Below the pieces are notes generated by a model. The model did not search any database, was not told where the DNA came from, and saw only the letters and a program-made list of their open reading frames with translations. The translations under genes were made by a program, and so were the position numbers. A DNA stretch of 64,000 nucleotides, from contig NZ_CP031148.1 of NCBI RefSeq assembly GCF_003342675.1, positions 1,426,001 through 1,490,000 of the forward strand, written 5' to 3'. The stretch is from Haloplanus rubicundus (GTDB lineage Archaea > Halobacteriota > Halobacteria > Halobacteriales > Haloferacaceae). This document shows positions 2,809 through 43,000 of the stretch, piece after piece; position 1 is the first letter of the stretch, and every line of letters starts with the position of its first letter.

Positions 2809-4473
2809 ATGACCGATGCGGTCGATACCCTCGTTCGCGGCACGCTAGTAAACGTCCACACGGGGACCCTCGAGGACGGCGCCGTCGCCGTCGACGACGG
2901 CGAAATCGTCGCGCTGGCGGAGCGCCCGGCCGAGCGAACCCTCGACGCCGGCTACGTCGCGCCCGGACTCGTCGACGCGCACATGCACGTCGAATCGAGC
3001 ATGGTGACGCTGCCGGAGTACGGCGACGCGGTCCTGCCGCGTGGCGTGACGAGCGTCGTCCACGACCCCCACGAAATCGCGAACGTGCTGGGGGCGGCCG
3101 GCGTTCGCGCTGTCGTCGCGGACGCGGCGAACACGCCGCTGAAGGCCCGTTTCACCGTCCCGTCGAGCGTCCCGGCGTCATCGCTGCAGGACGCGGGGGC
3201 GACGATAGACGCCGACGCCGTGGCGTCGTTGCTCGACCTCGACTCCGTCGTCGCGCTGGGCGAGGTGATGGACGTGCCGGGACTCCTCGCCGGCGACGAC
3301 GAGGTACACGCGAAGATCGCGGCCGCCCGGGAGCGCGGCCTCCCGGTCGACGGCCACATGCCCGGCGTCGAGGGCGCAGCCCTCCACGAGGCCGCCCGGT
3401 ATCTCGACACCGACCACGAGAGCATCACGCTCGCCGAAGCGCGGGCGCGGGCGTCGCTCGGCGTCCGGGTCTACCTGCGCGAGGGCTCGTCGAGCAAGAA
3501 TCTCGCCGACCTCCTGCCGCTCGTCGACGACATCGACACCCGCCGGCTCTCGCTCTGCACCGACGACCGGGAGGTGGTCGACGTCGTCGACCACGGCGGC
3601 GTCGACTTCGCGGTCCGGAAGGCCATCGACGAAGGGGCCGACCCCGTCGAGGTGGTCCAGATGGCGACGCTCAACACGGCCGAGAGCTACGACCTGCCGT
3701 TCGGACGGCTCGAACCCGGCGCGCCGGCCGATCTGGTGTTGCTCGACGATCTGGCGTCGTGGACGGTCGCGGACGTGATGGTCGACGGCGAACTGAACCC
3801 CACGGCGGACGAGCGACCCGACTCGACGAACTTGGCGACCGATACCGTCCAGTTCGACCCGGTCTCGGGCGCGGACCTCGCCGTCGAGGCACCCGCCGAC
3901 GCCGGGGAGACGGCTCGCGTCCGCGTCATCGACGCCGTCGGCGGACTCCAGACCGATCCCATGGAGACCGCCGTCCCGGTCGACGCGGACGCGCTGGTGC
4001 CACCGGTCGACGACGACGTCTGCTCGCTGGCCGTCATCGAGCGCCACGGCGGGAACGGCGGCATCGGACGGGGCTTCGTCCACGGCCTCGGCCTGCACCG
4101 TGGCGCTATCGGCTCCACCGTCGCCCACGACGCCCACAACTGCGTGGTCGCCGGCGCGGACCACGACGCCATGGCCCGCGTGGCCAACCACCTGCGCGAG
4201 GTCGGCGGCGGCATCGCCGCCTTCGACCCCGCCGCCGGGACGATGGCGTCGCTCCCGCTGCCGGTCGCGGGGCTCATGTCCGACGAGCCGATAGAGACGG
4301 TGTACGAGGGGTACGAACGGGTCGAGTCGCTCGCGGCCGACCTCGGGCTGGTCGAGGCCGGCCTGATGGAACTGTCCTTCCTCGCGCTGGAGGTCATCCC
4401 GACCTACCGGCTGACGAACCGGGGACTGGTCGACGTGGCAGCGGGCGAACACGTCGACGTGGTTCGGTCCTGA
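2809..4473 (+). CDS. ade: Adenine deaminase
   Basis: Converts adenine to hypoxanthine and ammonia (purine salvage or catabolism, cytosol). The 554-residue length matches the prokaryotic Ade family of the amidohydrolase superfamily. Visible motifs are the metal-binding DAHMHVESSM near residues 57-66, the VHDPHEIANVLG block, GHMPGV, the SLCTDDRE active-site strand and the late block GGNGGIGRGFVHGLGL. The ATG at 2809 begins MTDAVDTLVRG, typical of the family. It is followed on the opposite strand by a xanthine-dehydrogenase-like enzyme, which would take the hypoxanthine product onward to xanthine and urate. Confidence 0.95.
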   Translation: MTDAVDTLVRGTLVNVHTGTLEDGAVAVDDGEIVALAERPAERTLDAGYVAPGLVDAHMHVESSMVTLPEYGDAVLPRGVTSVVHDPHEIANVLGAAGVRAVVADAANTPLKARFTVPSSVPASSLQDAGATIDADAVASLLDLDSVVALGEVMDVPGLLAGDDEVHAKIAAARERGLPVDGHMPGVEGAALHEAARYLDTDHESITLAEARARASLGVRVYLREGSSSKNLADLLPLVDDIDTRRLSLCTDDREVVDVVDHGGVDFAVRKAIDEGADPVEVVQMATLNTAESYDLPFGRLEPGAPADLVLLDDLASWTVADVMVDGELNPTADERPDSTNLATDTVQFDPVSGADLAVEAPADAGETARVRVIDAVGGLQTDPMETAVPVDADALVPPVDDDVCSLAVIERHGGNGGIGRGFVHGLGLHRGAIGSTVAHDAHNCVVAGADHDAMARVANHLREVGGGIAAFDPAAGTMASLPLPVAGLMSDEPIETVYEGYERVESLAADLGLVEAGLMELSFLALEVIPTYRLTNRGLVDVAAGEHVDVVRS

Positions 4474-4544: not shown

Positions 4545-6992
4545 TCAGTCGTCGTCGAGCGCGCTCTTGATCTTCTCCGCGGTGATCGGCATGTCGCCGA
4601 TGCGGACGCCGACGGCGCGGCGGACGGCGTTGCTCAGCGCCGGCGGCACCCCGTTGACCGGAATCTCGGCGACCGACTTCGCGCCGAAGGGACCGGTCGG
4701 CTCGTGGGTCTCGACGATGATGGATTCCATCGGGGGCTGGTCGGCCGTGGTCGGCATATCGTAGTCGCGGAAGCCGAGCGTCTCCGGCCGGCCGTCCTCG
4801 TCGAAGCCGATGCCGTCGCCGGTCGCCAGTTCGTAGCTCATGTGCATCGCGCCCTCGATCTGGCCCTCCACGAGGTCGGGATTGAGGGCGACGCCGCAGT
4901 CGACGGCGTACACCATGTCGTGAATCTCGAACTCGCCGGTCTCCTCGTTCACGGTCACGTCGACGAACTGCGCGCCGAAGGGCGGCGGCGACTCCTCCGT
5001 GCAGTGGCTCGCGTCGCCCATCACGTGGGCGCGCACCTCGTCGCCGTACATGGACTCGTAGCCGATCTCTTCGAGCGACACCGACTCGCCGGTGACCGCC
5101 GAGACGACCGCCCCGTCGTCGACGGTGAACGCGTCCTCGGGTTCGTCGAGCATCCGCGAGGCGAACTCGAACAGCATCCCGCGGGCGTCCTCGGCGGCCT
5201 TCTTGACCGCCTGCCCGGTGATGTACGTCGTCGAGGAGGCGTAGGCGCCGTGGTCGAACGGCGAGATGTCGGTGTCCGACGGCTGGACGAGTACGTCCGC
5301 CGGGGGCACGCCGAGCACCTCGGCCGCGATTTGTGCCATCACGGTGTCGGCGCCCGGCCCGATGTCGACGGCGCCGGTCTGGAGGATAAAGGAGCCGTCC
5401 TCGTTCATCTTGATGTGTGCCGCGCCGAGTTCGTCGCCGGGGACGCCGCTGCTCTGGATGGTGAGCGCCATCCCACAAGCCCGGTGGAGGTGGTCGGCGT
5501 CGGGCCCTTCGACGTCGTCCCAGCCGATGGCCGCCCGGCCCTCGGCGATGCACTCGTCGAGACCACACGAGCGGATGCGTCGGCCGTACTCCTTCTCCTT
5601 GAGGATGCCCGAGGCCACGTCGAGGTCACCCTCCGAGATGGCGTTCCGCGACCGGAGTTCGATGGGGTCGAGGTCGAGTTCGTGGGCGATTTCGTCCATG
5701 TGCCCCTCGACGGCGAGGTGGCCCTGCGGGGCGCCGTAGCCGCGGAAGGCGCCCGCGACCGGCAGGTTGGTGTGGACGGCCGTCATCTCGAAGCGGATGT
5801 TCGGCGTGTGCGTATAGAGCGGCAGCGGCTTCTTGCCGACGGCGCTGGCGACGGTCATCCCGTGGGGACCGTAGGCCCCCGAGTTCGTGACGGCGTCCAT
5901 GTCCAGCGCCCGGAGGTCGCCGTCGTCGGTCACGACGCTCCGGAGCGTGACGCGGGCGGGCCGGCGGTTGCGCACCGCGTGGAACTGCTCGCGCCGCGTC
6001 GTCTCGACCATCACCGGCCGACCGGCGGCCTCCGCGAGCGCCATCGCGATCGGTTCGGTGTGCATCCCCTGCTTCGAGCCGAAGCCGGCGCCGATCCGCG
6101 GCTTCGACACCTGGATGTTCTTGATCGGCACGTCGAAGAGATGGGAGAGCTGTCGGCGCGTGTGGTAGGGCACCTGCGTGCTGGAGATGAGGTGGTACCG
6201 GTTGTCCTCGTCGCGGTGGGCGATGGTCGTATGCGGCTCGGGGACGCAGTGGGACTGGTAGGGCGTCTCCCACTCCGTCTCGATCACCGTCAGATCGTCC
6301 CGCTCCTCGGCCTCGGCGAAGGCGGCGTCCACGTCGCCGATTTCGCCCGCCATGTTGGACTCGACGTTTCGCTCGTAGTCCGCGCCGGGCTGGTGGTTCT
6401 CCACCTCGTCGGGGTCGTGAATCTGTGGCGCGTCGGGCTTCGTCGCCGCCGCGGTGTCGAAGACGGCGTCGTACTCCTCGTAGGAGACGTCGAGTTTGCG
6501 CGCGGCCTTGCTCGCGGTGTCCGCGTCCTCGGCGACGACGGCGGCGATGGGGTCGCCGACGAAGCGCACCTTCCGACGGAGCACCCGGAGGTCCCACGGG
6601 GAGGGCTCGGGGTAGGACTGGCCGGCCGACGTGTAGGGCTCGTTCGGGACTTCGGGGGAGTCCGGCGTCACGACGGCGTAGACGTCGTCCATCGCCTCGG
6701 CCGCGCTCGTGTCGATGTCCGTCACGACGCCGTGGGCGATGTCCGAGCGGACGATCTTCGCCTCGGCGAGGTCCGGGAACTCCCGGGCGTAGTCGGCCGC
6801 GTACTTCGCCTCGCCGGTGACGATCTTCGTGGCGTCGTCTTTCTCCTCGCGGTGTGAGACCGTTCGGCGCTCCGCCGGCGCTTTCCGGTTGTTCGGCGCC
6901 TCGTCCCACTCCATCGGGTTGGCCGCCTCGATCTTCGAGGCGTCGTCGGCCTCCTCCTCCTCTTCCGGCTCCGGCTCGTCGGTCTTGCTCAT
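4545..6992 (-). CDS. Xanthine dehydrogenase-like molybdopterin-binding large subunit
   Basis: Molybdenum hydroxylase large subunit of 815 residues. Residues 1-60 are an acidic, probably disordered extension. The small N-terminal a/b-hammerhead domain then starts near TGEAKYAADYAREFP, followed by two Mo-binding lobes. The active-site loop reads AFRGYGAPQ (about residues 415-423), as in xanthine dehydrogenase and form II enzymes, and not the CO dehydrogenase form I loop. The catalytic glutamate is in AKSVAE (Glu776). The start ATG overlaps the stop of the iron-sulfur subunit (ATGA), so the two are cotranscribed. No FAD subunit gene is adjacent. Position beside adenine deaminase and a purine permease points to hypoxanthine/xanthine oxidation, although the substrate is inferred. 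Confidence 0.88.
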   Translation of the reverse strand: MSKTDEPEPEEEEEADDASKIEAANPMEWDEAPNNRKAPAERRTVSHREEKDDATKIVTGEAKYAADYAREFPDLAEAKIVRSDIAHGVVTDIDTSAAEAMDDVYAVVTPDSPEVPNEPYTSAGQSYPEPSPWDLRVLRRKVRFVGDPIAAVVAEDADTASKAARKLDVSYEEYDAVFDTAAATKPDAPQIHDPDEVENHQPGADYERNVESNMAGEIGDVDAAFAEAEERDDLTVIETEWETPYQSHCVPEPHTTIAHRDEDNRYHLISSTQVPYHTRRQLSHLFDVPIKNIQVSKPRIGAGFGSKQGMHTEPIAMALAEAAGRPVMVETTRREQFHAVRNRRPARVTLRSVVTDDGDLRALDMDAVTNSGAYGPHGMTVASAVGKKPLPLYTHTPNIRFEMTAVHTNLPVAGAFRGYGAPQGHLAVEGHMDEIAHELDLDPIELRSRNAISEGDLDVASGILKEKEYGRRIRSCGLDECIAEGRAAIGWDDVEGPDADHLHRACGMALTIQSSGVPGDELGAAHIKMNEDGSFILQTGAVDIGPGADTVMAQIAAEVLGVPPADVLVQPSDTDISPFDHGAYASSTTYITGQAVKKAAEDARGMLFEFASRMLDEPEDAFTVDDGAVVSAVTGESVSLEEIGYESMYGDEVRAHVMGDASHCTEESPPPFGAQFVDVTVNEETGEFEIHDMVYAVDCGVALNPDLVEGQIEGAMHMSYELATGDGIGFDEDGRPETLGFRDYDMPTTADQPPMESIIVETHEPTGPFGAKSVAEIPVNGVPPALSNAVRRAVGVRIGDMPITAEKIKSALDDD

Positions 6993-29422: not shown

Positions 29423-29959
29423 TTATAATAATTGCTGCAGATACAACCACCGCCGCGACCAGAATTGATAGAGCGTCGACACGGCGATGACGACGAGGAA
29501 GAAGCTCGCCCACAGGAGTGGGTCGACGGTCGAGATTAGCGGCGTGTCGGTAGACGCGAGTACGATGCTGAGCAACGAAATCGTCCCGATTGCCCGGTAG
29601 TAGGTTGCCCACGTGACACCGTATCGGGTGACGACCTCCATGTACAGATCGACCTGCCGCGCGGATTTGCGGAGGAGGATCGTCTTTCGGTCGCTGTCGT
29701 AGTCGACGATCCCCGCGTCGTCGAGTTTGGGGAGGTGCGTCTGGTGGAGGGAGACGTAGACGCTATCGCGGATGTTGCTCGGCGGGGGTGATTCGTTCGT
29801 CTCGATTTCGGCGATGTGTTCCGCGAGGTCGCGAAGCGATACCTCCCGCCCCCGATCCTGAAGACACTTGATGACGTTTCTCCGCCGGTCGTTTCGGAGA
29901 ATGTCGTGGATGTCCGTTTCGGGAAGTACGTCGTCCGTCTGGAGTAGTCCGATGTTCAT
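29423..29959 (-). CDS. Membrane-anchored winged-helix regulator (DUF7344-like)
   Basis: Encodes 178 residues. The N-terminal about 105 residues form a winged helix: DIHDILRNDRRRNVIKCL, SLRDLAEHIAE, then SVYVSLHQTHLPKLDDAG and a wing. The C-terminal end has two membrane helices (TWATYYRAIGTISLLSIVLA and LLWASFFLVVIAVSTLY), which would tether it to the membrane. Start 29959 (MNIGLLQTDDVL) avoids nine extra residues in a longer frame. It is divergent from the SipW-substrate gene cluster, making it the best local candidate for its regulator. Confidence 0.8.
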   Translation of the reverse strand: MNIGLLQTDDVLPETDIHDILRNDRRRNVIKCLQDRGREVSLRDLAEHIAEIETNESPPPSNIRDSVYVSLHQTHLPKLDDAGIVDYDSDRKTILLRKSARQVDLYMEVVTRYGVTWATYYRAIGTISLLSIVLASTDTPLISTVDPLLWASFFLVVIAVSTLYQFWSRRWLYLQQLL

Positions 29960-30279
29960 GTGTAGCGACCGGGTCGACCACAACAACAGGACAAAAGAGC
30001 ATAGTTATCAGGAGCTTTCTCCGCGGACGGCCGAGCCTGAACACGCGGATAACAGCCAGTTAGCTGGTCTGGTCGGTCCGGATATTTCGGAGTTTCAGGC
30101 CGTCTCTGTGGTTAATGTATAATTAAGGCGCGAGCGCTACGCGCGCGCGAATGCCTCGTCGTGCCGTGTCATCCGGGCCGCTAGGGTAATGGGTCCTTTC
30201 CCCCGCTTAGTCCGACGTTATGTGAGAGAATTGGTGATTAGCTATGGGGGTAGATGTGTTGGATAGCAGTGTCGGCACA
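29960..30279. promoter_or_regulatory. Control region of the SipW-substrate cluster
   Basis: A 320-bp gap between the divergent HTH regulator and the first SipW-type substrate. The best plus-strand TATA is TATAATTAA at 30118-30126, predicting a start near 30150 and a leader of roughly 190-200 nt. It is followed by an alternating GC run (30127-30150) that could form secondary structure. The leader ends in the structured element described at 30280-30334. Confidence 0.5.
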
Positions 30280-30334
30280 CCCACGCTGGTCACGACGACG
30301 GTTCGACTCCGTCGGTGGGCATCCCCTCACGGGG
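30280..30334 (+). promoter_or_regulatory. T-loop hairpin leader element, copy 1
   Basis: An outer 5-bp stem CCCAC/GTGGG (30280-30284 with 30315-30319) encloses a 6-bp stem CGACGG/CCGTCG (30296-30301 with 30309-30314) whose 7-nt loop TTCGACT matches the tRNA T-loop consensus. A second hairpin, CCCC-TCAC-GGGG, follows at 30323-30334, 10 nt before the ATG. No acceptor, D or anticodon arm is present, so it is not a tRNA. Two relatives precede the next two paralogous genes. Confidence 0.6.
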
Positions 30335-30344
30335 GGAACACACC

Positions 30345-31346
30345 ATGACGGACGAACGATTCGACATTTCGCGGCGGAAGGCATTGGCTGCTCTCGGCAC
30401 CATCGGCGTCGCCTCGGCGGGCGCCGGACTGGGCACGAGCGCGTACTTCTCCGATCAGGAGACGTTCGAGAACAACCAGCTGACGGCCGGCACCCTCGAT
30501 ATGGGCGTGTCGTACTCGGCGCATTACTCGGACTGGAGCGACGACGAGGGCGAGGGCGTCGATGTCAACATGTGGGACGGTCCCGCGAACACGACGGGTA
30601 CCGCGAACGATCTCACGGACGGCTACACCGGCCTGCCGGCGAACGACGCCTGGCTCATCGAGGTCGACGATCCGGCGCAGTTCCTCGAAAACACGGAAAC
30701 CCAGTCGTACAACGCGGACACGGAACTCGTCTGTGAGGCCGGCGAAGCGATCTCGCAAGCCGACGACGCTCCCAAGCCCGTCATCGAGCTGGGCGACGTG
30801 AAGCCGGGTGACTTCGGCGAGGTTACGTTCAACTTCATCCTGTGTGATAACCCCGGGTACGTCTGGCTGAACGGCGGCCTCGTCAGTGAGAGCGAGAACG
30901 GCGTAACCGAACCCGAAGCCGACGACCCGGACGAGATGGCCGGAGTCGTCGAACTCCTCGACGTCGTCAAGGCGGCTGTCTGGATCGACAACGGCAACAA
31001 CTACCAGGACGGCGACGAGATGATTCCCTCCTCCTACACCGGATCGCTCCGCGACGTGCTGGGCATGATCGAGGGCTCCAACGGGACGCCGCTCCCCGGC
31101 AACATGAACGCCGAAGCGGGCGGCGGGACCGGCGAACAGGGTTGCTTCTCCGCCGACGAAGAACACTCCATCGCGTTCGCGTGGTGGGTGCCGGTCGACC
31201 ACGGCAACGAAATCCAGTCCGACAGCGCGACCTTCGACCTGGGTCTCTACACCGAGCAGTGCCGCCACAACGACGGTAGCGGCCTGAACAACGAGGGCCT
31301 CGAAGACGAGGTCGACGACGACGAGGAAGACAACAACGGGACGTAA
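30345..31346 (+). CDS. SipW-type signal, TasA/CalY-like secreted protein
   Basis: Encodes 333 residues, extremely acidic. The N-terminus (FDISRRKALAALGTIGVAS then GTSAYFSDQETFENN) is the SipW-dependent signal segment seen in TasA/CalY-type proteins, preceded by a twin Arg. The mature part is beta-rich with the scaffold blocks VKPGDFGEVTFNFILCDNPG, ESENGVTEPE and EIQSDSATFDLGLYTEQCRH, and an acidic tail. Start 30345 (MTDERFDIS) follows the leader element. The expected fate is export, cleavage by the SipW-like peptidase at 34548 and assembly at the cell surface. Confidence 0.85.
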   Translation: MTDERFDISRRKALAALGTIGVASAGAGLGTSAYFSDQETFENNQLTAGTLDMGVSYSAHYSDWSDDEGEGVDVNMWDGPANTTGTANDLTDGYTGLPANDAWLIEVDDPAQFLENTETQSYNADTELVCEAGEAISQADDAPKPVIELGDVKPGDFGEVTFNFILCDNPGYVWLNGGLVSESENGVTEPEADDPDEMAGVVELLDVVKAAVWIDNGNNYQDGDEMIPSSYTGSLRDVLGMIEGSNGTPLPGNMNAEAGGGTGEQGCFSADEEHSIAFAWWVPVDHGNEIQSDSATFDLGLYTEQCRHNDGSGLNNEGLEDEVDDDEEDNNGT

Positions 31347-31358
31347 CGGCGCGACCGA

Positions 31359-31428
31359 CCCACTCGGAGACGGCGTTTCCGACGCCGACGGCGGTTCGAC
31401 TCCGCCGGTGGGCATCCCCTGGATGGGG
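31359..31428 (+). promoter_or_regulatory. T-loop hairpin leader element, copy 2
   Basis: Same architecture as copy 1. The outer stem CCCAC/GTGGG is at 31359-31363 with 31408-31412. The inner stem CGGCGG/CCGCCG (31389-31394 with 31402-31407) differs from copy 1 by a compensated A-T to G-C pair, with the identical loop TTCGACT. An extra hairpin CGGCGT-TTCCG-ACGCCG (31371-31387) fills the variable arm, and CCCC-TGGAT-GGGG (31416-31428) follows. It lies in the gap between the first two substrate genes, 42 nt before the ATG. Confidence 0.6.
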
Positions 31429-31470
31429 AGCGAGGCCGCCTCACGGTGGTCAATCGGAGGATACCAAACC

Positions 31471-33348
31471 ATGTCAAACGATTTCGAACTCTCACGGCGG
31501 AAGGCGCTCGCCGCGCTCGGCAGCATCGGCGTGGCATCGGCTGGGGCCGGACTCGGTACGTCCGCGTACTTCAGCGATCAGGAAACGTTCGAGAACAACC
31601 GGCTCGTGGCGGGCGAGCTGGACCTCAAGATGGACTGGGAGGAGCACTACTCCGACTGGTCGGCGGACGAGAACGATATCCGCGACGGTGAAGGCGAATT
31701 CGAAGTGCGGATGGAAGCCCCGGACAACCCCAGTGGATACCGGGAGTTCCCGCCGGGAGCGTCAGAGCCCTTGATCTGGGTTCCTGAACCGTCCGTGGAC
31801 GACTTCATGGACAATACGTCTATCGAGGGATACCCCGACGCAGACAACGACGGTATCACGGAATTCCCGATAGAAGAAATGAACGGGCGGGCACCGTGCG
31901 ACTACCTCGCTGATGTGGGTAACGACGATGAGGGCTTAGACCCGGACAGCGACGAACTGGGCCGGACGGATACCGACGACACGCGACTTGACGACGGCTC
32001 CCCGGCGCCGCTGATCAATCTGCAGGACGTAAAACCGGGCGACTTCGGGGAGATCACGTTCAGTACCCATCTCTGTGACAACCCCGGCTACCTCTGGATG
32101 AACATGCCGGGCGGTCTTGAGGCGAGCGAAAACGGCGTCACTGAACCCGAAGAGGACGACCCGGACGAGGGAGAGGGTGTTGAACTCGTCGAGAAGATTC
32201 AGACCGCCCTCTGGTACGATAACAACTGTGACAATCTCATCACGTGTGAAGAGAAAATCGACGTGATGGTCGTGGCCGATACGTCCGGGAGCATCGGAGG
32301 TAACCTCGACAACGGTATTCCGGGTGAGGATGTCGACATTCTAGCCAACGCAGCCAATACCTTCTTCACCGAGCTTGAAGCACGAACGACTACTGATGAA
32401 GTCCGGGCAGGGTTACTGACATTCAACGGACCGAGTGATGCTGGTGAAGATGATCCGACGGTGTTCAATAGGCCCGCTCTCCGCGCTGGCCTAGGCCCAC
32501 TCGATCAGTTCGATGTTGACAGCGACGGAAGCCCCGACCTCAGAGAATTCTTACCCACTAGAGGGAGCGGTAACACGCCCACGCCCCACGCGCTGGATCT
32601 GGCTCGGAAGGTTCTCAACGATCAGGGTCGACCGGATGCGAAACAAGTTATCGTCCTCGCCACCGACGACAATCCGGATTACGTCGGTGGCGACTCTCCC
32701 ACCATCCCGTACACCGTTACGGAAGGTGAAGGAAGCCCACTTCCGGCAGGACCGAGCTACACGTCAGAGGTCTACGCTGGCAACAGTGATGGATTCAGTT
32801 CTACCACGGAACAAGATGAGACTGCGGATGCAGCTGAAAGCGTCCAACAAGATGGAATAGAAATCCGGGTCGCTGGGATCGGCGTGGATGATCTCGTCCT
32901 CCTGAGAGACCGTGTCGCTGGAGATGATGGTGACCAAACTATGGCACAGCCGGACTTCTTCGACGAGGCCACGATTGACAACGTCGTGACAGTTGCTGAA
33001 GGAATAGTGCAAGACATTGTCGGAGGAACTGGGCGCTGTGACGAAGTCATCTTTACAGGAAGCCTCGGCGAACTCGAAAACGCCCTCACCGCCAACGGTG
33101 GTCGCGGAATTCCGCTCGATGGGGATCGCGGAACCCAGTTCGACGAACTGAACGGGGACGAAAACGACGAGAATCGGGAGTGCTTCCTGGCCTCCGGTAC
33201 CAACTGCTTCGGCCTCGCCTGGTGGCTCCCCGAGAACCACGGCAACGAGGTCCAGTCCGATTCGGTCCGCTTCGACCTCGGCTTCTACACCGAGCAGTGC
33301 CGCCACAACGACGGCAGCGGCATGAACAACGAGAACGTCGACGCCTGA
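31471..33348 (+). CDS. TasA-like secreted protein with inserted VWA domain
   Basis: Encodes 625 residues. The signal segment (FELSRRKALAALGSIGVAS, GTSAYFSDQETFENN) and the scaffold ends match the protein at 30345-31346. Within it, at about residues 262-523, is a von Willebrand factor A domain with the MIDAS start VMVVADTSGSIGG (Asp270) and the later blocks VRAGLLTFNG and VIVLATDDNPD. The scaffold resumes at DEVIFTGSLGELENAL and ends HGNEVQSDSVRFDLGF. The insert looks less GC-rich than the flanks. GGAGG at 31456-31460 precedes ATG 31471. Likely a metal-dependent adhesive variant of the surface protein. Confidence 0.85.
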   Translation: MSNDFELSRRKALAALGSIGVASAGAGLGTSAYFSDQETFENNRLVAGELDLKMDWEEHYSDWSADENDIRDGEGEFEVRMEAPDNPSGYREFPPGASEPLIWVPEPSVDDFMDNTSIEGYPDADNDGITEFPIEEMNGRAPCDYLADVGNDDEGLDPDSDELGRTDTDDTRLDDGSPAPLINLQDVKPGDFGEITFSTHLCDNPGYLWMNMPGGLEASENGVTEPEEDDPDEGEGVELVEKIQTALWYDNNCDNLITCEEKIDVMVVADTSGSIGGNLDNGIPGEDVDILANAANTFFTELEARTTTDEVRAGLLTFNGPSDAGEDDPTVFNRPALRAGLGPLDQFDVDSDGSPDLREFLPTRGSGNTPTPHALDLARKVLNDQGRPDAKQVIVLATDDNPDYVGGDSPTIPYTVTEGEGSPLPAGPSYTSEVYAGNSDGFSSTTEQDETADAAESVQQDGIEIRVAGIGVDDLVLLRDRVAGDDGDQTMAQPDFFDEATIDNVVTVAEGIVQDIVGGTGRCDEVIFTGSLGELENALTANGGRGIPLDGDRGTQFDELNGDENDENRECFLASGTNCFGLAWWLPENHGNEVQSDSVRFDLGFYTEQCRHNDGSGMNNENVDA

Positions 33349-33374
33349 TCGCAGACGGCTCGCTCCCCACCCTA

Positions 33375-33442
33375 CCCACGCTGGTGCCGGACGTTCCGGG
33401 TTACGCCGGACGCCCCTACGACGGTTCGATTCCGTCGGTGGG
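33375..33442 (+). promoter_or_regulatory. T-loop hairpin leader element, copy 3
   Basis: The outer stem CCCAC/GTGGG is at 33375-33379 with 33438-33442. The inner stem CGACGG/CCGTCG is at 33419-33424 with 33432-33437, and the loop TTCGATT again fits the T-loop consensus. The sequence after CCCAC (GCTGGT) is shared with copy 1. A small hairpin CCGGA-CGT-TCCGG (33387-33399) occupies the variable arm. GTGGG ends only 5 nt before the ATG at 33448, so the stem could mask the ribosome-binding region. Confidence 0.6.
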
Positions 33443-33447
33443 CCTAC

Positions 33448-34233
33448 ATGCCGCTCGATTCGCTCACTCGACGACGGATTCTCGCCGCGGCCGGGAGCGT
33501 CGGGGCTCTCTACCTTGGCGTGGATCGCGCCGGTGCCGCCCTCGGCTACGAACCGGTCGATCTGAACCAACGGGCGGTGAACGGCACGTACGCGCGCACG
33601 AACGAGTTCACACAGGCGCCGCCACGGATCGCCCTCTCGTGGCGCGAAATCGTGAACGGCGAGAGACAGGAAGACACGGGGCTCACGACGGACGCGGAGG
33701 GCGAGACGGGCGACGTGGGACTGGTCGTCGACGAGGCGGTGATGCCGGGCGACAGTGGATCGGTGACGATGCGGGCCGAGTTGCTCGAGCGCGACACGCC
33801 GACCGTCGATTCCGTCGCGCTCTATCTCCTCCTTCGGCTCTCCGATACGGCGGAAAACGGCGTGAACGAACCCGAGTTGGACGCCGGAGATTCTCCGGGC
33901 GAAGACGGCGGGGAGCTGCAGGATCACACGGAGATTTCCGTCTGGATCGACGAGGGAATCTTCACCGGGAACGGCGAACTGGAGGAGCTACCGGTCATCG
34001 GGGACAACACCGTCGCGGAGGGCACTCTCGCAGAGGTCGCCGATCCGGATCCGAAAGGGACTGGGGACGGCGAGTATCGGATCAGGATCGACGGGACCGA
34101 CTGTTTCTCGCCGGGCGACGAAGTGTACGTCTCCTTCGAGTGGCGGATTCCTGACACCGTCGGGAACATCATCCAGAGCGATTCGGCCACCTTCCAGGTT
34201 GCCTTCGATCCGCGGCCGTGCACGGAGGGGTAA
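33448..34233 (+). CDS. SipW-cluster secreted protein, TasA-like scaffold
   Basis: Encodes 261 residues. The signal is shorter and Tat-like (LTRRRILAAAGSVGALYLG) and lacks the clear AYFSD block. The mature scaffold shares blocks with the two upstream proteins: MPGDSGSVTM, ENGVNEPELDAGDSPGE, ISVWIDEGIF, and the ending GNIIQSDSATFQVAFDPRPC. The third gene of the array, it has leader element copy 3 directly before its ATG. Probably a minor or capping subunit, but its role is inferred from synteny and sequence resemblance. Confidence 0.8.
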   Translation: MPLDSLTRRRILAAAGSVGALYLGVDRAGAALGYEPVDLNQRAVNGTYARTNEFTQAPPRIALSWREIVNGERQEDTGLTTDAEGETGDVGLVVDEAVMPGDSGSVTMRAELLERDTPTVDSVALYLLLRLSDTAENGVNEPELDAGDSPGEDGGELQDHTEISVWIDEGIFTGNGELEELPVIGDNTVAEGTLAEVADPDPKGTGDGEYRIRIDGTDCFSPGDEVYVSFEWRIPDTVGNIIQSDSATFQVAFDPRPCTEG

Positions 34234-34547: not shown

Positions 34548-35690
34548 GTGTGGAGCGTGAGTCTCGTCGGTGACCGCGACGTGCCACGGCTGGCGGTGAA
34601 CGGTCTGATCATCCTCGTGATCGCCGCCGTCGTCGCGCCTTTCATCGTGTACGCCGTTCCGGGCGTCGTCGGGGCGGACCACGGACTCGTCGTCCTCTCC
34701 GGCAGCATGGAACCGCGGATGAGTCCCGGCGACGCCGTCATCGTCCGAGAAGTGCCGCCCTCCGAGATCGAACGGCAGGACATTATCACGTACCAACGGC
34801 AGGGAAGCGACACGCCGACGACCCACCGCGTGATCGAGAAGCAGTCGACCGAAAACGGCGTCGCCTACGTCACGAAAGGCGACGCCAACGAGGAGCGTGA
34901 CCGTGGAACCGTCTCACACGATCGGGTAGTGGGCGAGGTCATCTTCGTGATTCCGTTCATCGGTCACGTGATCCAGTTCGCCAACACACAGCTCGGCTTC
35001 CTCGTGCTCGTGCTCACGCCGATGGTGCTGTTCGTCCTCTCGGAGCTTTGGGAACTGGCGAAATCGGTCCGTGACCCCGAAACTGGGGGCGAAGACGGCT
35101 CGCCCGCCGCGGACGAGCCACCGGCTGTGACCACGACGGCTGCGGAGACCAGCTCCACCACCGACGACGAGTCCGACGGCTTCACGCTCACGCGGTCGAG
35201 CCTCCAACTGGTCTTACTCCTCTTCGGGCTGTACGTCCCGTACAGCGCGTACGTAGCGTATACGACCCAGGAAGCGTGGTCTATCGCCGTCGCGACCGGG
35301 ACAGCTATCGGGTTCCTGTTCTGCCTCGTGCTCTATCTGGCCAGCCGCGGTTCCGGTTCGAATTCGGGGGCGACCCGCTCCGTCGACGGCGTCGTCCGGC
35401 GTGGCGAGTTGCCGGCCGGGATCAGTGACCGAACCACGATTCCGCTCGAATCGGTCGAATCGTTGGTCCAGATGGCGCTGGACCGCGACGACTGGGTCAT
35501 CTACGACGAGGAGCAGGACACGTACTACATGACCCGTGACGACGCCCTCTATCTACACCGTGCTGCCCCCGAAACCGACGGTGGGACGGCGGTCGATGGG
35601 GGCGATCCGGCGTCCAACGACACGGTCGATTCGGCGGGGAGCCCCGCGGATGGCGATCACTCGCGACCGACGGGCGGTGATGGGACGTGA
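34548..35690 (+). CDS. SipW-like signal peptidase with extra membrane and C-terminal domains
   Basis: Encodes 380 residues. The N-terminal signal peptidase I part has one helix, then VLSGSMEPRMSPGDAVIV with the catalytic Ser53, and TTHRVIEK with His93 in place of Lys (Ser/His type, as in SipW and the ER enzyme), then TKGDANEERD. After a second helix comes a Thr/Ser/acid linker, two more helices (about residues 220-265) and a soluble C-terminal region with VQMALDRDDWVIYDEEQD, an addition over plain SipW. Start GTG 34548; GTG 34557 is equally possible. The ATG-less start overlaps nothing, while its stop overlaps the next start (GTGA). Confidence 0.85.
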   Translation: MWSVSLVGDRDVPRLAVNGLIILVIAAVVAPFIVYAVPGVVGADHGLVVLSGSMEPRMSPGDAVIVREVPPSEIERQDIITYQRQGSDTPTTHRVIEKQSTENGVAYVTKGDANEERDRGTVSHDRVVGEVIFVIPFIGHVIQFANTQLGFLVLVLTPMVLFVLSELWELAKSVRDPETGGEDGSPAADEPPAVTTTAAETSSTTDDESDGFTLTRSSLQLVLLLFGLYVPYSAYVAYTTQEAWSIAVATGTAIGFLFCLVLYLASRGSGSNSGATRSVDGVVRRGELPAGISDRTTIPLESVESLVQMALDRDDWVIYDEEQDTYYMTRDDALYLHRAAPETDGGTAVDGGDPASNDTVDSAGSPADGDHSRPTGGDGT

Positions 35691-36706
35691 CCGATCCCCG
35701 CTCCCTGTCGCGCCGAAAGCTCCTGTGGGCGCTGACCACCGTGGGAGCTGCGGCGTCGACCGGGGGCGGAGCGGCCGCGCTGTTTCACGACTCGGAGACG
35801 TTCGGCGAGTCGAGGGTATCGGCCGGCGTGGTCGACCTGGAGGCCGAGCCGTCGTGGGGGAACGACGACTCGCTCGGGACGATATCGACGGGTGAGAGCG
35901 GGAGCCGGGAGGTCCGACTCACCCTCGTCGACAACCCGTCCTACGTCTGGTTCCGGACGGAGTGTACACAGTGTCTGGACGTCGAAGAGGCGCTGTACGT
36001 TCGATACGGGATCGACACCAGCGGGGACGGGGAGATAGACATGCCGATCACGGACGGATACATAACCCTCCGCGAGGCACGCGACCGGTTCGGAACCGGC
36101 GAATTCGTCGGTACACTCCAGCCCGACGCGGAGTGGCTGCTCGTCGCCGAGTGGGAGCTTCGTGAATGGGTCGAGGATACCGACGTGTCGCTCTCGTTCG
36201 ACTTCTACGCGACACAAACCCGACACGTGTCCGATCCGAGCGATATCGAGCTTCCGTGGTCCTGTGTGGACTGTGGCGATCCGACGGGTGATCCGTCGGA
36301 CGGGGACGACGTCGTGTCGGAGATAAGCTGGGTGGCGTTCTGTGGCAGTTCGGCGTTCGACACCGACTTCACACCGCAGCTGACCGACGAGGGTCGGACG
36401 CTCCTGCTCGACACCGACGCGTACACGATCCCCGATACGGTCGAGACGGTCGCGATCAAGTACGGACGGACGATCGAGGTCTTCACGTACGGTAGTCAGG
36501 ACTCGCTCACGGTCGGCGTCAACGACGGGACCACGTACCCGAAACTGGACGGACGGGGTAACGGGTACGCGAACACCTCTCGCAGCAGTTCGAACTTCTG
36601 TGACGGCGAGGACGGCTGTAAGTACGAGTTCGACGACGGCGAGTGGGAATGCACCAACGGGAGGCCGAACCGCGCGCTTCGCGGTCGTCTCGGAGGTAAG
36701 CGCTGA
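35687..36706 (+). CDS. SipW-type signal protein, Cys-containing secreted subunit
   Basis: Encodes 339 residues from GTG 35687. The N-terminal SLSRRKLLWALTTVGAA followed by ALFHDSETFGESRVSAG is a SipW-dependent signal variant. The mature part has CTQC and CVDC pairs, an acidic beta-rich core resembling the TasA-like scaffold (SGSREVRLTLVDNPSYVW), and a second region from residue about 205 (VSEISWVAFCGSSAFDTDF) of unknown type, perhaps a separate adhesion or fibre domain. Start overlaps the sipW stop; stop overlaps the next gene (TGATG), so translation is coupled. Confidence 0.8.
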   Translation: MTDPRSLSRRKLLWALTTVGAAASTGGGAAALFHDSETFGESRVSAGVVDLEAEPSWGNDDSLGTISTGESGSREVRLTLVDNPSYVWFRTECTQCLDVEEALYVRYGIDTSGDGEIDMPITDGYITLREARDRFGTGEFVGTLQPDAEWLLVAEWELREWVEDTDVSLSFDFYATQTRHVSDPSDIELPWSCVDCGDPTGDPSDGDDVVSEISWVAFCGSSAFDTDFTPQLTDEGRTLLLDTDAYTIPDTVETVAIKYGRTIEVFTYGSQDSLTVGVNDGTTYPKLDGRGNGYANTSRSSSNFCDGEDGCKYEFDDGEWECTNGRPNRALRGRLGGKR

Positions 36707-38943
36707 TGTCGCGACTCGACGATCCCGGATTCGACTGGACGGCCGTCGTCACGCTCTTCGTCGTGTTCGCTGTCGTCGTCTCCGGCGCCGGTGGCGGGAC
36801 GTACGCCGTTCTCTCCGACATCGAGAACACCACGGGGACCCTGTCCATCGAACAGGTCGTCCAGAACGAGCAGTACCAGGTCTACGATGTCTCTTGTGAC
36901 GTGATCGAGGAGGGCAACGTCGTCGAGACGTCCTCCGACGCCAGCGAGATGAGAAGCCTCCGGGACTTCGAGATCCCGGATCGGGAGGGCTGTGTCAAGG
37001 TGTCCGTCTGGCTCCAACCCTCTGCATTCGGCGATTCGTCGCCAAAGAACGCGACCATCGCCCACCGGCACGAGGGAGAGTGGAAGTACCTCAACACCTC
37101 GGTCAAGTGGAACACCGAAGGCTGGATGATCGAGCTGTCGGCGTACACGGAGAGCTACAGTCCGTTCGCCGTGTTCGTCCCCAACGAATCACGGCAGACC
37201 ACGCAGTTCGCCGACCCCCTCGTCCCGGCGAACGCGTCGACGGATAACGGAACGGCGGCACCGACGGTGACGCCCACGCCGACACCGACAGCCACTCCGA
37301 CGCCGACACCCGAGCCGACGGCGCCGCCCACGCCGACACCGACAGCCACTCCGACGCCGACACCCGAGCCGACGGCGCCGCCCACGGACGAGCAGGACTC
37401 CGGTGGTGGTGGCGGTGGCGGCGGCGGTGCGTCTGGAGCGGCGACGGACGACGATGACCACGGGTCCGACTTCGCCGACGATGACGACGGTTCCGACACC
37501 TCGTCCGACGAGTCGACGAACCCATCCGAGGACGGCTCGGAGGACGAGAGTTCCGGTGAGGGTGCGGACGAGTCGTCGGACGAGAATTCGACGGACGATG
37601 GTTCGGAGGAGTCGTCCACCGACGGCGAGTCGGATGATGAATCGGAGGACACCTCCGGTGACGACGAGTCGGACGATGGAACGGACGACGAGTCGGACGA
37701 TGGAACGGACGACGAGTCGGACGATGGAACGGACGATACCTCGGGCGACGACGGATCGGAGGACACCTCCGGTGACGACGAGTCGGACGATGGAACGGAC
37801 GACGAGTCGGACGATGGAACGGACGATACCTCGGGCGACGACGGATCGGAGAACACCTCCGGTGACGACGAGTCGGACGATGGAACGGACGACGAGTCGG
37901 ACGATGGAACGGACGATACCTCGGGCGACGACGGATCGGAGAACACCTCCGGTGACGACGAGTCGGACGATGGAACGGACGACGAGTCGGACGATGGAAC
38001 GGACGACGAGTCGGACGATGGAACGGACGACGAGTCGGACGATGGAACGGACGACGAGTCGGACGATGGAACGGACGATACCTCGGGCGACGACGGATCG
38101 GAGGACACCTCCGGTGACGACGAGTCGGACGATGGAACGGACGACGAGTCGGACGATGGAACGGACGATACCTCGGGCGACGACGGATCGGAGAACACCT
38201 CCGGTGACGACGAGTCGGACGATGGAACGGACGACGAGTCGGACGATGGAACGGACGATACCTCGGGCGACGACGGATCGGAGAACACCTCCGGTGACGA
38301 CGAGTCGGACGATGGAACGGACGACGAGTCGGACGATGGAACGGACGACGAGTCGGACGATGGAACGGACGACGAGTCGGACGATGGAACGGACGACGAG
38401 TCGGACGATGGAACGGACGACGAGTCGGACGATGGAACGGACGATACCTCGGGCGACGACGGATCGGAGAACACCTCCGGTGACGACGAGTCGGACGATG
38501 GAACGGACGACGAGTCGGACGATGGAACGGACGATACCTCGGGCGACGACGGATCGGAGAACACCTCCGGTGACGACGAGTCGGACGATGGAACGGACGA
38601 CGAGTCGGACGATGGAACGGACGACGAGTCGGACGATGGAACGGACGATACCTCGGGCGACGACGGATCGGAGGACACCTCCGGTGACGACGAGTCGGAC
38701 GATGGAACGGACGATACCTCCGGTGATGACGGGTCGACCGATGGAGGGGACACCTCCGGCGATGACGGGTCGACCGATGGAGCAGACGACAACGAGTCGG
38801 ATGACGGATCGGATGACACCTCCGGTGATGACGGGTCGACCGATGGAGGGGGCACCTCCGGTGACGACGGCGGCTCGGACGGGAGCAGCAGCGGCAGTAG
38901 CCCGTCCGGATCGGACGGAAGCACTAGCGACGACTCACAATGA
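36706..38943 (+). CDS. Very acidic repeat surface protein, SipW-type N-terminus
   Basis: Encodes 745 residues. One N-terminal membrane or signal helix (residues 11-30) runs into TYAVLSDIENTTGTLS, a SipW-type segment. A globular domain follows (to about 170) that ends ESYSPFAVFVPNES, like the PGF-pre-PGF region. Then come PT-rich repeats (TPTPTATPTPTPEPTA, twice), a Gly run, and about 500 residues built from DESDDGTD and DTSGDDGSENTSGD units. No C-terminal membrane anchor or PGF-CTERM-like end is seen. GGAGGT precedes ATG 36706, which overlaps the previous stop. Probably an extended, Ca2+-binding or spacer-like surface chain. Confidence 0.82.
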   Translation: MSRLDDPGFDWTAVVTLFVVFAVVVSGAGGGTYAVLSDIENTTGTLSIEQVVQNEQYQVYDVSCDVIEEGNVVETSSDASEMRSLRDFEIPDREGCVKVSVWLQPSAFGDSSPKNATIAHRHEGEWKYLNTSVKWNTEGWMIELSAYTESYSPFAVFVPNESRQTTQFADPLVPANASTDNGTAAPTVTPTPTPTATPTPTPEPTAPPTPTPTATPTPTPEPTAPPTDEQDSGGGGGGGGGASGAATDDDDHGSDFADDDDGSDTSSDESTNPSEDGSEDESSGEGADESSDENSTDDGSEESSTDGESDDESEDTSGDDESDDGTDDESDDGTDDESDDGTDDTSGDDGSEDTSGDDESDDGTDDESDDGTDDTSGDDGSENTSGDDESDDGTDDESDDGTDDTSGDDGSENTSGDDESDDGTDDESDDGTDDESDDGTDDESDDGTDDESDDGTDDTSGDDGSEDTSGDDESDDGTDDESDDGTDDTSGDDGSENTSGDDESDDGTDDESDDGTDDTSGDDGSENTSGDDESDDGTDDESDDGTDDESDDGTDDESDDGTDDESDDGTDDESDDGTDDTSGDDGSENTSGDDESDDGTDDESDDGTDDTSGDDGSENTSGDDESDDGTDDESDDGTDDESDDGTDDTSGDDGSEDTSGDDESDDGTDDTSGDDGSTDGGDTSGDDGSTDGADDNESDDGSDDTSGDDGSTDGGGTSGDDGGSDGSSSGSSPSGSDGSTSDDSQ
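37663..38712 (+). repeat. 24-bp tandem repeat array inside the acidic surface protein gene
   Basis: Twenty-eight near-identical 24-bp units (encoding DESDDGTD) in ten runs of 3, 2, 2, 5, 2, 2, 6, 2, 3 and 1, each run separated by a 42-bp unit (DTSGDDGSE[D/N]TSGD). The DNA, not only the protein, is repeated almost without change, so recent in-frame expansion and contraction is likely. Length variation between strains or within assemblies should be expected here. Confidence 0.95.
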
Positions 38944-40017: not shown

Positions 40018-43000
40018 TCAGTCGTCGCCAGTCTGGACCGTTCCCGCACCGATTTCGGCGCCACCGGCCTTCGACGCCGGTTCGGGGAGGTCAGTGCGCA
40101 CGTCCTCGCGGCTCTCCTCGGCGATGACCTCGGCGTACGCGTCGGGCATCACCTTCGTGAAGTTCAGGACTTCGGTGCCCCAGTCGTCGAGGAGCGTCGC
40201 TGCACGGTCGCTGTCGGTGTAGGCCGCGTGGTTCTCGACCATCCGGCGGAGCATGGCCTCGTCGGACTCCTCGAGGTCGTGGTGGATGGTCACCATGCCC
40301 TCGTTGGCGCGCTCCTGGAAGTCGCCGTCGGGGTCGTAGACGTAGGCGATTCCGCCGGACATCCCGGCCGCGAAGTTCCGCCCCGTCTCGCCGAGGACGG
40401 CGACGACGCCGCCGGTCATGTACTCGCAGCCGTGGTCGCCGACGCCCTCGACGACGGCTTTCACGCCGCTGTTGCGGACGGCGAAGCGCTCGCCAGCGAG
40501 GCCGTTGACGTAGAGTTCGCCCTGCGTCGCGCCGTAGAGACAGACGTTGCCGACGAGGATGTTGTCCGCGGGGTCGTACGCGGCCGTTTCGGGCGTCCGG
40601 ACGATCACCTTGCCGCCCGAGAGCCCTTTGCCGACGTAGTCGTTGGCGGCGCCGACGAGTTCCATCGTCACGCCGTTGGCGAGGAAGGCGCCGAAGCTCT
40701 GGCCGGCGATGCCGTCGAACGTACAGGAGATGGTGTCCTCGGGGAGGCCGCTCTCGCCGTAGCGCCGCGAGATGCGGTTCGAGAGCATGGCGCCGACTGC
40801 ACGGTCACCGTTCGAGATGTCCCGTCGGATGTGGATCGGCTCACCCTCCTCTATTGCGTCGGAGGCTTCGCCGATCAGGTCGCGGTCGAGGTGGGTCTGC
40901 ACGTCCGCGTGCTTCTGTTCACGAACCTTGTGACGTTCGCCGCCCTCGGGTTCGGCGATGATGGCCGACAGGTCGAGGTGTTTGGCCTTCGGGTGGTCGG
41001 TTTCGGTCTGTTTCAGGAGGCCGGGGCGACCGATCATCTCTTCGACCGACCGGAAGCCGAGTTCGGCCATGATCTCCCGCAGTTCCTCCGCGAGGAACGC
41101 CATGTAGTTGATGACGTGGTCCGGCTGGCCCGTGAAGCGGTCGCGCAGGTCCTCGTCCTGCGTGGCGACTCCCGTCGGACAGTTGTTGGTGTGGCAGATG
41201 CGGGCCATCACACAGCCGGAGGTGATGAGGCTGGCGGTGCCGAAGACGTACTCCTCGGCGCCGAGCAGCGCGGCGATGGCAACGTCGCGGCCGGTCATCA
41301 TGCCGCCGTCGGTGGAGACGCGGATGCGGTCGCGCAGCCCCGTCGCGCGGAGCATCTGGTTGGCCTCGGCGAGGCCGAGTTCCCACGGGAGCCCCGCGTT
41401 CTTGATCGACGTCTTCGGCGACGCGCCGGTGCCGCCGGAGTGGCCCGAGATGTGGACCACGTCGGCGTTGGCCTTTGCGACGCCGGCGGCGATGGTGCCG
41501 ATGCCCGCTTCCGCGACGAGTTTCACGTTGATGTCGGCCTCGGGGTTGGCCGTCTTCAGGTCGTGGATCAACTGTTTGAGGTCCTCGATGGAGTAGATGT
41601 CGTGAAGTGGGGGCGGCGAGATGAGGCCGACGCCCGGCGTGGAGTAGCGGACGTGGGCGATCATCTCGTTGACCTTCTTCCCGGGCAGGTGGCCGCCCTC
41701 GCCCGGCTTGGAGCCTTGGGCCATCTTGATCTGCAGCTCTTCGGCCGAGGAGAGGTAGTTCGACGTGACGCCGAACCGGCCGGACGCGACCTGCTTGATG
41801 TTACACTCCTTTTCGGTGTCGAAGCGCTCGGGGGGTTCGCCACCTTCGCCGGTGTTGGACTTCCCGCCGATGCGGTTCATCGCGATGGAGTTCGTCTCGT
41901 GGGCCTCCGGCGAGAGCGACCCGAGCGACATGGCGGCCGTCGAGAATCGCTCGACGATTTCGTGGACGGGCTGAACTTCGTCGAGCGGGACCGGATCGCG
42001 GTCGCTGTCGAACTCCAGCAGTCCGCGAAGGGTCTGGAGGTTCTCGCGCTGGTCGTTGATCAGCGCCGCGAACTCCTGGTACTTCTCGTAGTTCCCCGAG
42101 CGGACCGCCTGCTGGAGCGTCCCGACCGTCTTCGGGTTCCACTGGTGGTGGATGCCGTTCGAGCGGTGTTCGTACTCGCCCTGTCGTTCGAGCTCCGGAT
42201 CGGCACCGTAGGCGACGGCGTGGCGCGTCAGGAGGTCCTCTTCGAGCTGCGGGATGCCGATGCCTTCCGTTCGAATCTCCGTCCCTTCGAAGTACTCGCG
42301 GATGAACTCGGAGGAGAGGCCGACGGCCTCGAAGATCTGGGCGCCCTGGTAGCTCTCGACGGTCGAGATGCCCATCTTCGCCATCGTCTTCAGGAGGCCG
42401 TCCTCGAGGGCCTTCTTGTAGTGGGAGATGGCCTCGGCCTCCTCGGCGCCGTCGGGGCCGGCGACGATGTCACAGATGCTCTGGTAGGCGAGGTAGGGGT
42501 TGACCGCGTCGGCGCCGTAGCCGACGAGGGTCGCGAGGTGGTGGACCTCTCGCGGGTCGCCGGACTCGACGACGAGGCCGGCGTGGTTGCGGAGGCCGTT
42601 GCGGACGAGCGCGTGGTGGACGCCGCCGGTGGCGAGCAGGCTCGGAATCGGCACCCGATCCGGTCCCGTGTTCCGGTCGGAGAGGACGACGATGTCCACG
42701 CCGGCTTCGATGGCCGCGCGGGCGTCGCGGCGCAGGTCCTCGACGGCCGCCTCGAGGTCGCCGTCTTTCTCGTAGGTCATGTCGACGATGGCCGAGGAGA
42801 ACTCGCCCTCGAGGTCCTTGATCTCCGCCGTCTGTGCGTCCGTCAGGACCGGCGAATCGACGACGAGCTGGCGGGCGTGTTCCGGCGTCTCGTCGAGGAG
42901 GTTGCGCTGGGGACCGAGCCGGGATTCGAGGCTCGTCACCAGTTCCTCGCGGATGTAGTCGATGGGCGGGTTCGACACCTGCGCGAACAGCTGTTTGAAG

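Follow-up and report, generated by a model that had tools for sequence, protein, structure and literature searches.

Intercistronic tRNA-like elements in haloarchaeal SipW-type operons as candidate signals for transcript processing

Introduction

Within a 64-kb stretch of DNA (hereafter the window, the whole of the sequence analysed) from the 3.77 Mb genome of the haloarchaeon Haloplanus rubicundus, three secreted-protein genes are each directly preceded by a copy of the same hairpin-bearing sequence, raising the question of what this repeated element is and how it affects the transcripts carrying it. An earlier note had described the copies as an undescribed cis-acting RNA that could control translation or processing. 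Comparative analysis confirmed the repeated element, placed it in a family larger than first described, and added a conserved GG, a second hairpin at a predicted cut, an occurrence before 5S rRNA and defined spacings to stop and start codons. A structured, tRNA-like cis-acting RNA preceding SipW-type genes was thereby upheld, but the kind of RNA is already known, since it matches the t-element found before haloarchaeal 5S rRNA.

In Haloferax volcanii the 5S rRNA 5' end is made by tRNase Z at a tRNA-like structure (PMC3296008, PMC4326828, PMC7714728), and RNase P and tRNase Z release an RNA flanked by t-elements by cutting at these (PMC4326828). The haloarchaeal BHB splicing endonuclease, another enzyme of stable RNA, is reported to act on an mRNA too (PMC7714728), although its processing differs from that of t-elements in both enzyme and motif. 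In organelles, tRNA-like structures likewise define the ends of protein-coding mRNAs in long transcripts of plant mitochondria (PMC8003010), and in animal mitochondria the tRNA-shaped units between cistrons are substrates of RNase P and RNase Z (PMC5474008). The former are organellar and sporadic, whereas the haloarchaeal elements form a conserved family repeated across the tandem operons of a single gene class; the latter are real tRNAs, whereas the haloarchaeal elements lack an anticodon arm in their short form and match no tRNA model. Haloarchaeal 5S rRNA and mRNAs of plant mitochondria provide earlier examples of t-elements; their use in archaeal protein operons appears to be new. Other predicted H. 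volcanii t-elements were reportedly left uncut in vitro (Hoelzle 2012, Biochimie 94:940), which counts against a processing role here; those elements came from a structural search in a genus other than the present one.

Results

Organization of the locus

All three copies were re-located in the window through their CCCAC, T-hairpin and GTGGG segments at the positions first described (Table 1). In each, a T-hairpin of 6 bp and a 7-nt T-loop is followed by GTGGG, and the stretch between CCCAC and the T-hairpin measures 11, 25 and 39 nt in copies 1, 2 and 3, respectively. The arm between the stems, said to fold in two copies, does so in copies 2 and 3, and the outer stem of copy 3 indeed ends 5 nt before the ATG at 33448. 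All three genes carry an RR-type signal. The SipW-type signal peptidase further downstream, which scores 96.8 bits against NF046067 SipW, under that model's cut-off, is a probable processing partner of the proteins of the cluster, and no t-element is found at its gene.

Table 1. Features of the SipW-type gene cluster in the window
Feature	Position	Strand	Basis
Conserved promoter-like block GTTATGTGAGAGAATTGGTGATTAGCTATG, 5' of copy 1	30217..30246	+	
t-element copy 1	30280..30319	+	sequence; model R1 E 1.2e-15; Lactobacillaceae-trained R2 E 9.1e-7
Copy 1 acceptor strands	CCCAC 30280-30284, GTGGG 30315-30319	+	sequence
Copy 1 GG	30288-30289	+	
Copy 1 T-hairpin CGACGG-TTCGACT-CCGTCG	30296-30314	+	sequence
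Copy 1 second hairpin UCCCC-UCAC-GGGGG, beginning at predicted tRNase Z cut 30321/30322	30322..30336	+	homologue covariation, register
SipW-type signal gene 1, Camelysin/M73-like N-terminus	30345..31346	+	TIGR04088 34.9 bits (cut-off 19); PF12389
t-element copy 2, 12 nt 3' of gene 1 stop	31359..31412	+	sequence, model R1
Copy 2 acceptor strands	CCCAC 31359-31363, GTGGG 31408-31412	+	sequence
Copy 2 extra folded arm	31369-31388	+	
Copy 2 T-hairpin	31389-31407	+	
Copy 2 second hairpin UCCCC-UGGAU-GGGGA, at predicted cut 31414/31415	31415..31429	+	sequence, register, covariation
SipW-type signal gene 2 with von Willebrand A domain	31471..33348	+	TIGR04088 27.2 bits (cut-off 19); PF00092
t-element copy 3, 26 nt 3' of gene 2 stop, long folded arm	33375..33442	+	sequence, model R1
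Copy 3 acceptor strands	CCCAC 33375-33379, GTGGG 33438-33442	+	sequence
Copy 3 GG	33383-33384	+	
Copy 3 T-hairpin	33419-33437	+	
Copy 3 predicted cut giving a 3-nt leader; no second hairpin	33444/33445	+	sequence
Gene 3, RR-type signal, related secreted protein, no named family	33448..34233	+	
Archaeal signal peptidase I, SipW type	34548..35690	+	TIGR02228 106.8 bits (cut-off 51.85)

The promoter-like block 5' of copy 1 is found again in three related genomes, upstream of the orthologous first element. Its TTAGCTAT part also precedes several SipW-type paralogues, some of them without a t-element, and the first genes of clusters have a conserved upstream block containing TTAGCTAT. The block, which ends in this motif, is likely to be a shared promoter or regulator site. 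A divergent gene for a DUF7344 winged-helix-like protein (29423-29986, minus strand) adjoins the SipW cluster and is a candidate regulator, and the cluster ends with a gene carrying a long acidic repeat (DESDDGTD units, 36706-38943).

Fold of the element

The evidence for the fold is comparative and does not come from single-sequence energy; taken one by one, the window copies have unremarkable folding energies (z from -1.5 to +0.1), which counts against the t-element assignment. In an alignment of 148 distinct copies, which was fitted to the model and so leans towards the structure, the T-stem and second hairpin hold standard pairs in 94.4% of cells versus 89.3% in shuffles, and 78 double-sided changes versus 18.3. 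None of 500 shuffles reached any of these measures, and sliding destroys the signal. For the outer stem, which lies outside the model, a full-strength 5' partner was present in 92 of 114 copies, compared with 48 for a reversed control. An independent test, in which the 5' strand was chosen from flanking motifs only and the 3' strand was left unused, gave full pairing in 117 of 147 copies and 620 Watson-Crick pairs versus 606 (sd 2.7), above all 2000 shuffles, an excess that is modest because most copies share CCCAC/GTGGG. Compensated variants include CCCGC/GCGGG, CTCAC/GTGAG and CCCAT/ATGGG. About 10–20% of copies have no clear 5' partner, and the stems amount to 11 pairs in total, not 12, both of which count against assignment as a t-element. 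An extra acceptor pair joining positions -1 and +6 was rejected as weakly supported (58 of 117 versus 52 expected).

Next to the 5' acceptor strand comes N-C-N-GG, whose G at +4 is present in 83 of 92 copies, and this GG can plausibly dock on the T-loop in the manner of the D-loop G18-G19 of tRNA. The tRNA-like T-loop contact suggested in the earlier note thus becomes plausible in a specific form, with the conserved GG taking the place of the D-loop. The loop of the T-arm (UUCGANU) meets the T-loop consensus, though TTC[G/A]A formed part of the search pattern. Where the arm between the stems is long, it forms one or two hairpins (n=46, mean z -2.4 versus single-base shuffles). Judged by comparison among copies, the whole element has a tRNA-like fold in which middle arms are optional.

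Inverted repeats lying between genes, several copies to a genome, might also represent a signal acting at the DNA level (an operator, a recombination repeat or a transcription terminator) and only resemble RNA. This is very unlikely, since the T-loop sequence, single-stranded in the fold, and the GG are conserved as in tRNA, the arms between the stems fold, and the spacing between stems varies from 8 to 66 nt. An intrinsic transcription terminator was likewise rejected, as the sequence after the elements is C-rich and has no U-tract.

Family size and distribution

A 20-nt core pattern matched the genome at 13 sites, compared with none for the reversed pattern. A covariance model (R1) built from seven own-genome copies, leaving out the 5' strand and including no 5S leaders, recovered both 5S rRNA leaders in addition to nine mRNA copies, all at E<2e-4; another match, L028 at E 7e-5, falls in coding-like sequence and was rejected as chance, and all others in this genome had E>0.02. 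Matches L014/L048 and L017, and those in coding sequence at 42965 and 60284 of the window, were discarded by hand as chance. Each of the nine mRNA copies is in sense with the gene that it immediately precedes, and these genes, most of them SipW-type, all have RR-type signals.

In the haloarchaeal DNA collected, 164 distinct copies were found, and 35 of 60 related genomes have a match at E<=1e-3, 5S-leader matches included; in a sample of 247 genomes from the phylum, matches at E<=1e-6 are confined to the same order. Named hosts include Halorubrum, Halobellus, Halobacterium, Halolamina, Haloarchaeobius, Haloglomus, Salinigranum, Halomicroarcula and Halorientalis, and copies on megaplasmids of Natronorubrum and Halorubrum adjoin genes annotated as SipW-dependent or vWA proteins. 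The covariance search proposed at the outset has revealed a family exceeding three copies and placed mostly before SipW-type genes. Simple gene duplication was rejected because the copies are dispersed and covary.

Neither are they tRNA 3' ends at integration sites. The T-loop and acceptor do resemble a tRNA 3' half, and ARAGORN calls copy 3 a tRNA-??? with no defined anticodon, as might be expected of tRNA ends or remnants left by integrating elements. Yet ARAGORN reports no tRNA at any other copy in the same genome, the Rfam tRNA model does not match the elements even at E 10, and the paired 5' strand is present, with covariation kept and copies always in sense before genes. Such an origin is contradicted by copies that are dispersed, covary and precede a single gene class, and is improbable in the extreme. 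A functional tRNA was rejected as well, the element having no anticodon arm. No Rfam family was matched by the haloarchaeal elements at its gathering score.

Relation to the 5S rRNA t-element

The leader of 5S rRNA in the same genome (CCGAC-GCTGG-cgtta-CGATGG-TTCGATT-CCATCG-GTCGG-CA) follows the same plan as copy 1. Such leaders, absent from the training of any model, were nonetheless recognised by R1 (E 1.7e-4) and by R2 (E 1.9e-5), a model built from Lactobacillaceae elements only. By their sequence and architecture, the mRNA elements are of the same family as the haloarchaeal 5S t-element, which (Hoelzle et al. 2008, as described in PMC3296008 and PMC4326828) has the same acceptor strand followed by N-C-N-GG, the same T-arm and the same register to the RNA downstream. 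That element lies before 5S rRNA, with a single copy for each 5S gene (L152 has two 5S genes in tandem), whereas the new copies precede protein genes, often with long arms and a second hairpin.

Gene association and intercistronic position

Under strict patterns, 106 of the 164 distinct copies precede SipW-type genes and a further 24 precede genes of the RR...GAFTS type; with looser RR signals counted the figure rises to 153, this looser class being without a control. Only 7 of the 16 genes scoring above the TIGR04088 cut-off in the own genome carry the element, so that it is not required for SipW proteins, and is a feature of certain operons rather than of the secretion route itself.

The distance from acceptor to start codon has a median of 25 nt over the 164 copies, and in 70 element-gene-element units the median from a stop codon to the next element is 29.5 nt. 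This closeness to the preceding stop codon indicates punctuation rather than a simple leader. The original description as a leader is correct in that the element precedes genes, but most copies are intercistronic and lie just 3' of a stop codon.

Haloarchaeal t-elements with other acceptor sequences were seen before non-SipW genes in L128, L149 and L157, possibly of viral origin. In L150 (reverse complement, about 408-432) a t-element just 3' of a stop codon is followed by a TATA-like sequence and then a secreted-protein gene, and here seems to mark where the upstream gene ends.

Predicted cut site and second hairpin

In 144 of 164 mRNA copies a U occupies the third position after GTGGG, and the second hairpin, where present, most often begins exactly at this U (GTGGG-N-N^U). 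Since the U is kept in 27 of 30 copies without that hairpin, it is not explained by it. The Rfam 5S model begins 3-4 nt after GTCGG of the own-genome 5S leader, within 1 nt of the same register, which places the predicted cut about 2 nt after the acceptor strand. Cleavage there would leave the RNA downstream of copies 1 and 2 with a blunt stem-loop at its 5' end. A tRNase Z gene was found in the own genome. The second hairpin is missing from some copies, including copy 3, which counts against the t-element assignment.

Alternatively, the element might be an uncut regulatory RNA, in which the tRNA-like fold and the hairpin near the start codon control translation or stability by binding a protein (for example a tRNA-binding or tRNA-modifying enzyme) or the ribosome. 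The strong structure, the conserved T-loop and the proximity of the second hairpin to the AUG are in accord with this proposal; however, the elements stay near the preceding stop codon, not all copies have the second hairpin, and the architecture is that of the 5S t-element, a cleavage signal, all of which make it unlikely. Between the two roles first envisaged, processing is thus favoured, and nothing points specifically to translational control.

Discussion

A model for operon processing

We consider it rather probable, from sequence comparison, that the copies are intercistronic t-elements splitting SipW-operon transcripts through tRNase Z, probably together with RNase P. Transcribed within the operon mRNA, each would adopt a minimal tRNA-like fold composed of an acceptor-like stem, a GG docking on the T-loop, an optional variable arm and the T-arm. 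Cleavage by tRNase Z would fall two nucleotides after GTGGG, before the conserved U, and RNase P would probably cut at the acceptor 5' end, so that the transcript is divided into single-gene mRNAs whose new 5' ends are a blunt GC-rich stem-loop or, as in copy 3, a near-leaderless AUG. The 5' stem-loop, often with a GNRA-like loop, may stabilise the mRNA, and the levels of co-transcribed surface-protein subunits could in this way be uncoupled, with consequences for their stoichiometry.

The element provides a candidate mRNA processing signal defined by sequence and structure, with exact predicted cuts and a tie to SipW-type exported proteins. If the model is true, the logic of mitochondrial tRNA punctuation extends to free-living prokaryotes, the 5S t-element has been reused, and a way is suggested by which co-transcribed surface subunits receive unequal mRNA fates.

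Related elements in Lactobacillaceae and viral contigs

Beyond the haloarchaea, the genome-wide DNA scan picked up Pediococcus and Lapidilactobacillus, with elements of the form CCCACTCTGGTGAC...CAGCGG-TTCGATT-CCGCYG-GTGGG-N-N-U. These are not tRNAs, nor is there a match to any Rfam family; their compensated outer stems include CCCGC/GCGGG and CTCAC/GTGAG, and the GG is conserved. Matches occur in 6 of 41 sampled Lactobacillaceae genomes. Several elements lie in prophage DNA, adjoining integrase and repressor genes, and those with a resolvable neighbour start 3-17 nt after a stop codon. Applied to the collected haloarchaeal DNA, R2 found 85 places at E<1e-3, nearly all of them the elements described above, 5S leaders included, and its eight best matches in the own genome are six mRNA copies and both 5S leaders. 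Whether tRNA-like punctuation of protein operons, cut by the ordinary enzymes of tRNA maturation, is a general prokaryotic device used in two domains (in haloarchaeal SipW operons and in prophage genes of Lactobacillaceae, through minimal t-elements alike in acceptor strand, GG, T-arm and cut context) is in our estimate evenly poised.

In Pediococcus acidilactici (L160), minimal tRNA-like elements directly follow stop codons at 5155-5195 and at about 3810-3850 (minus strand), and like elements are present in other Lactobacillaceae sequences (L175, L192, L195, L196, L198, L199, L201-L203, L205, L208-L210 and L216-L228). The IMG/VR viral contigs L197, L200, L204, L206 and L207 carry a tRNA-like element GCCCACGCTGGTG...GGTGGGC, and in several IMG/VR contigs the GCCCACGCTGGTG element lies a few dozen nucleotides before a 42-codon ORF (MYIEITDTIAIVIAL...).
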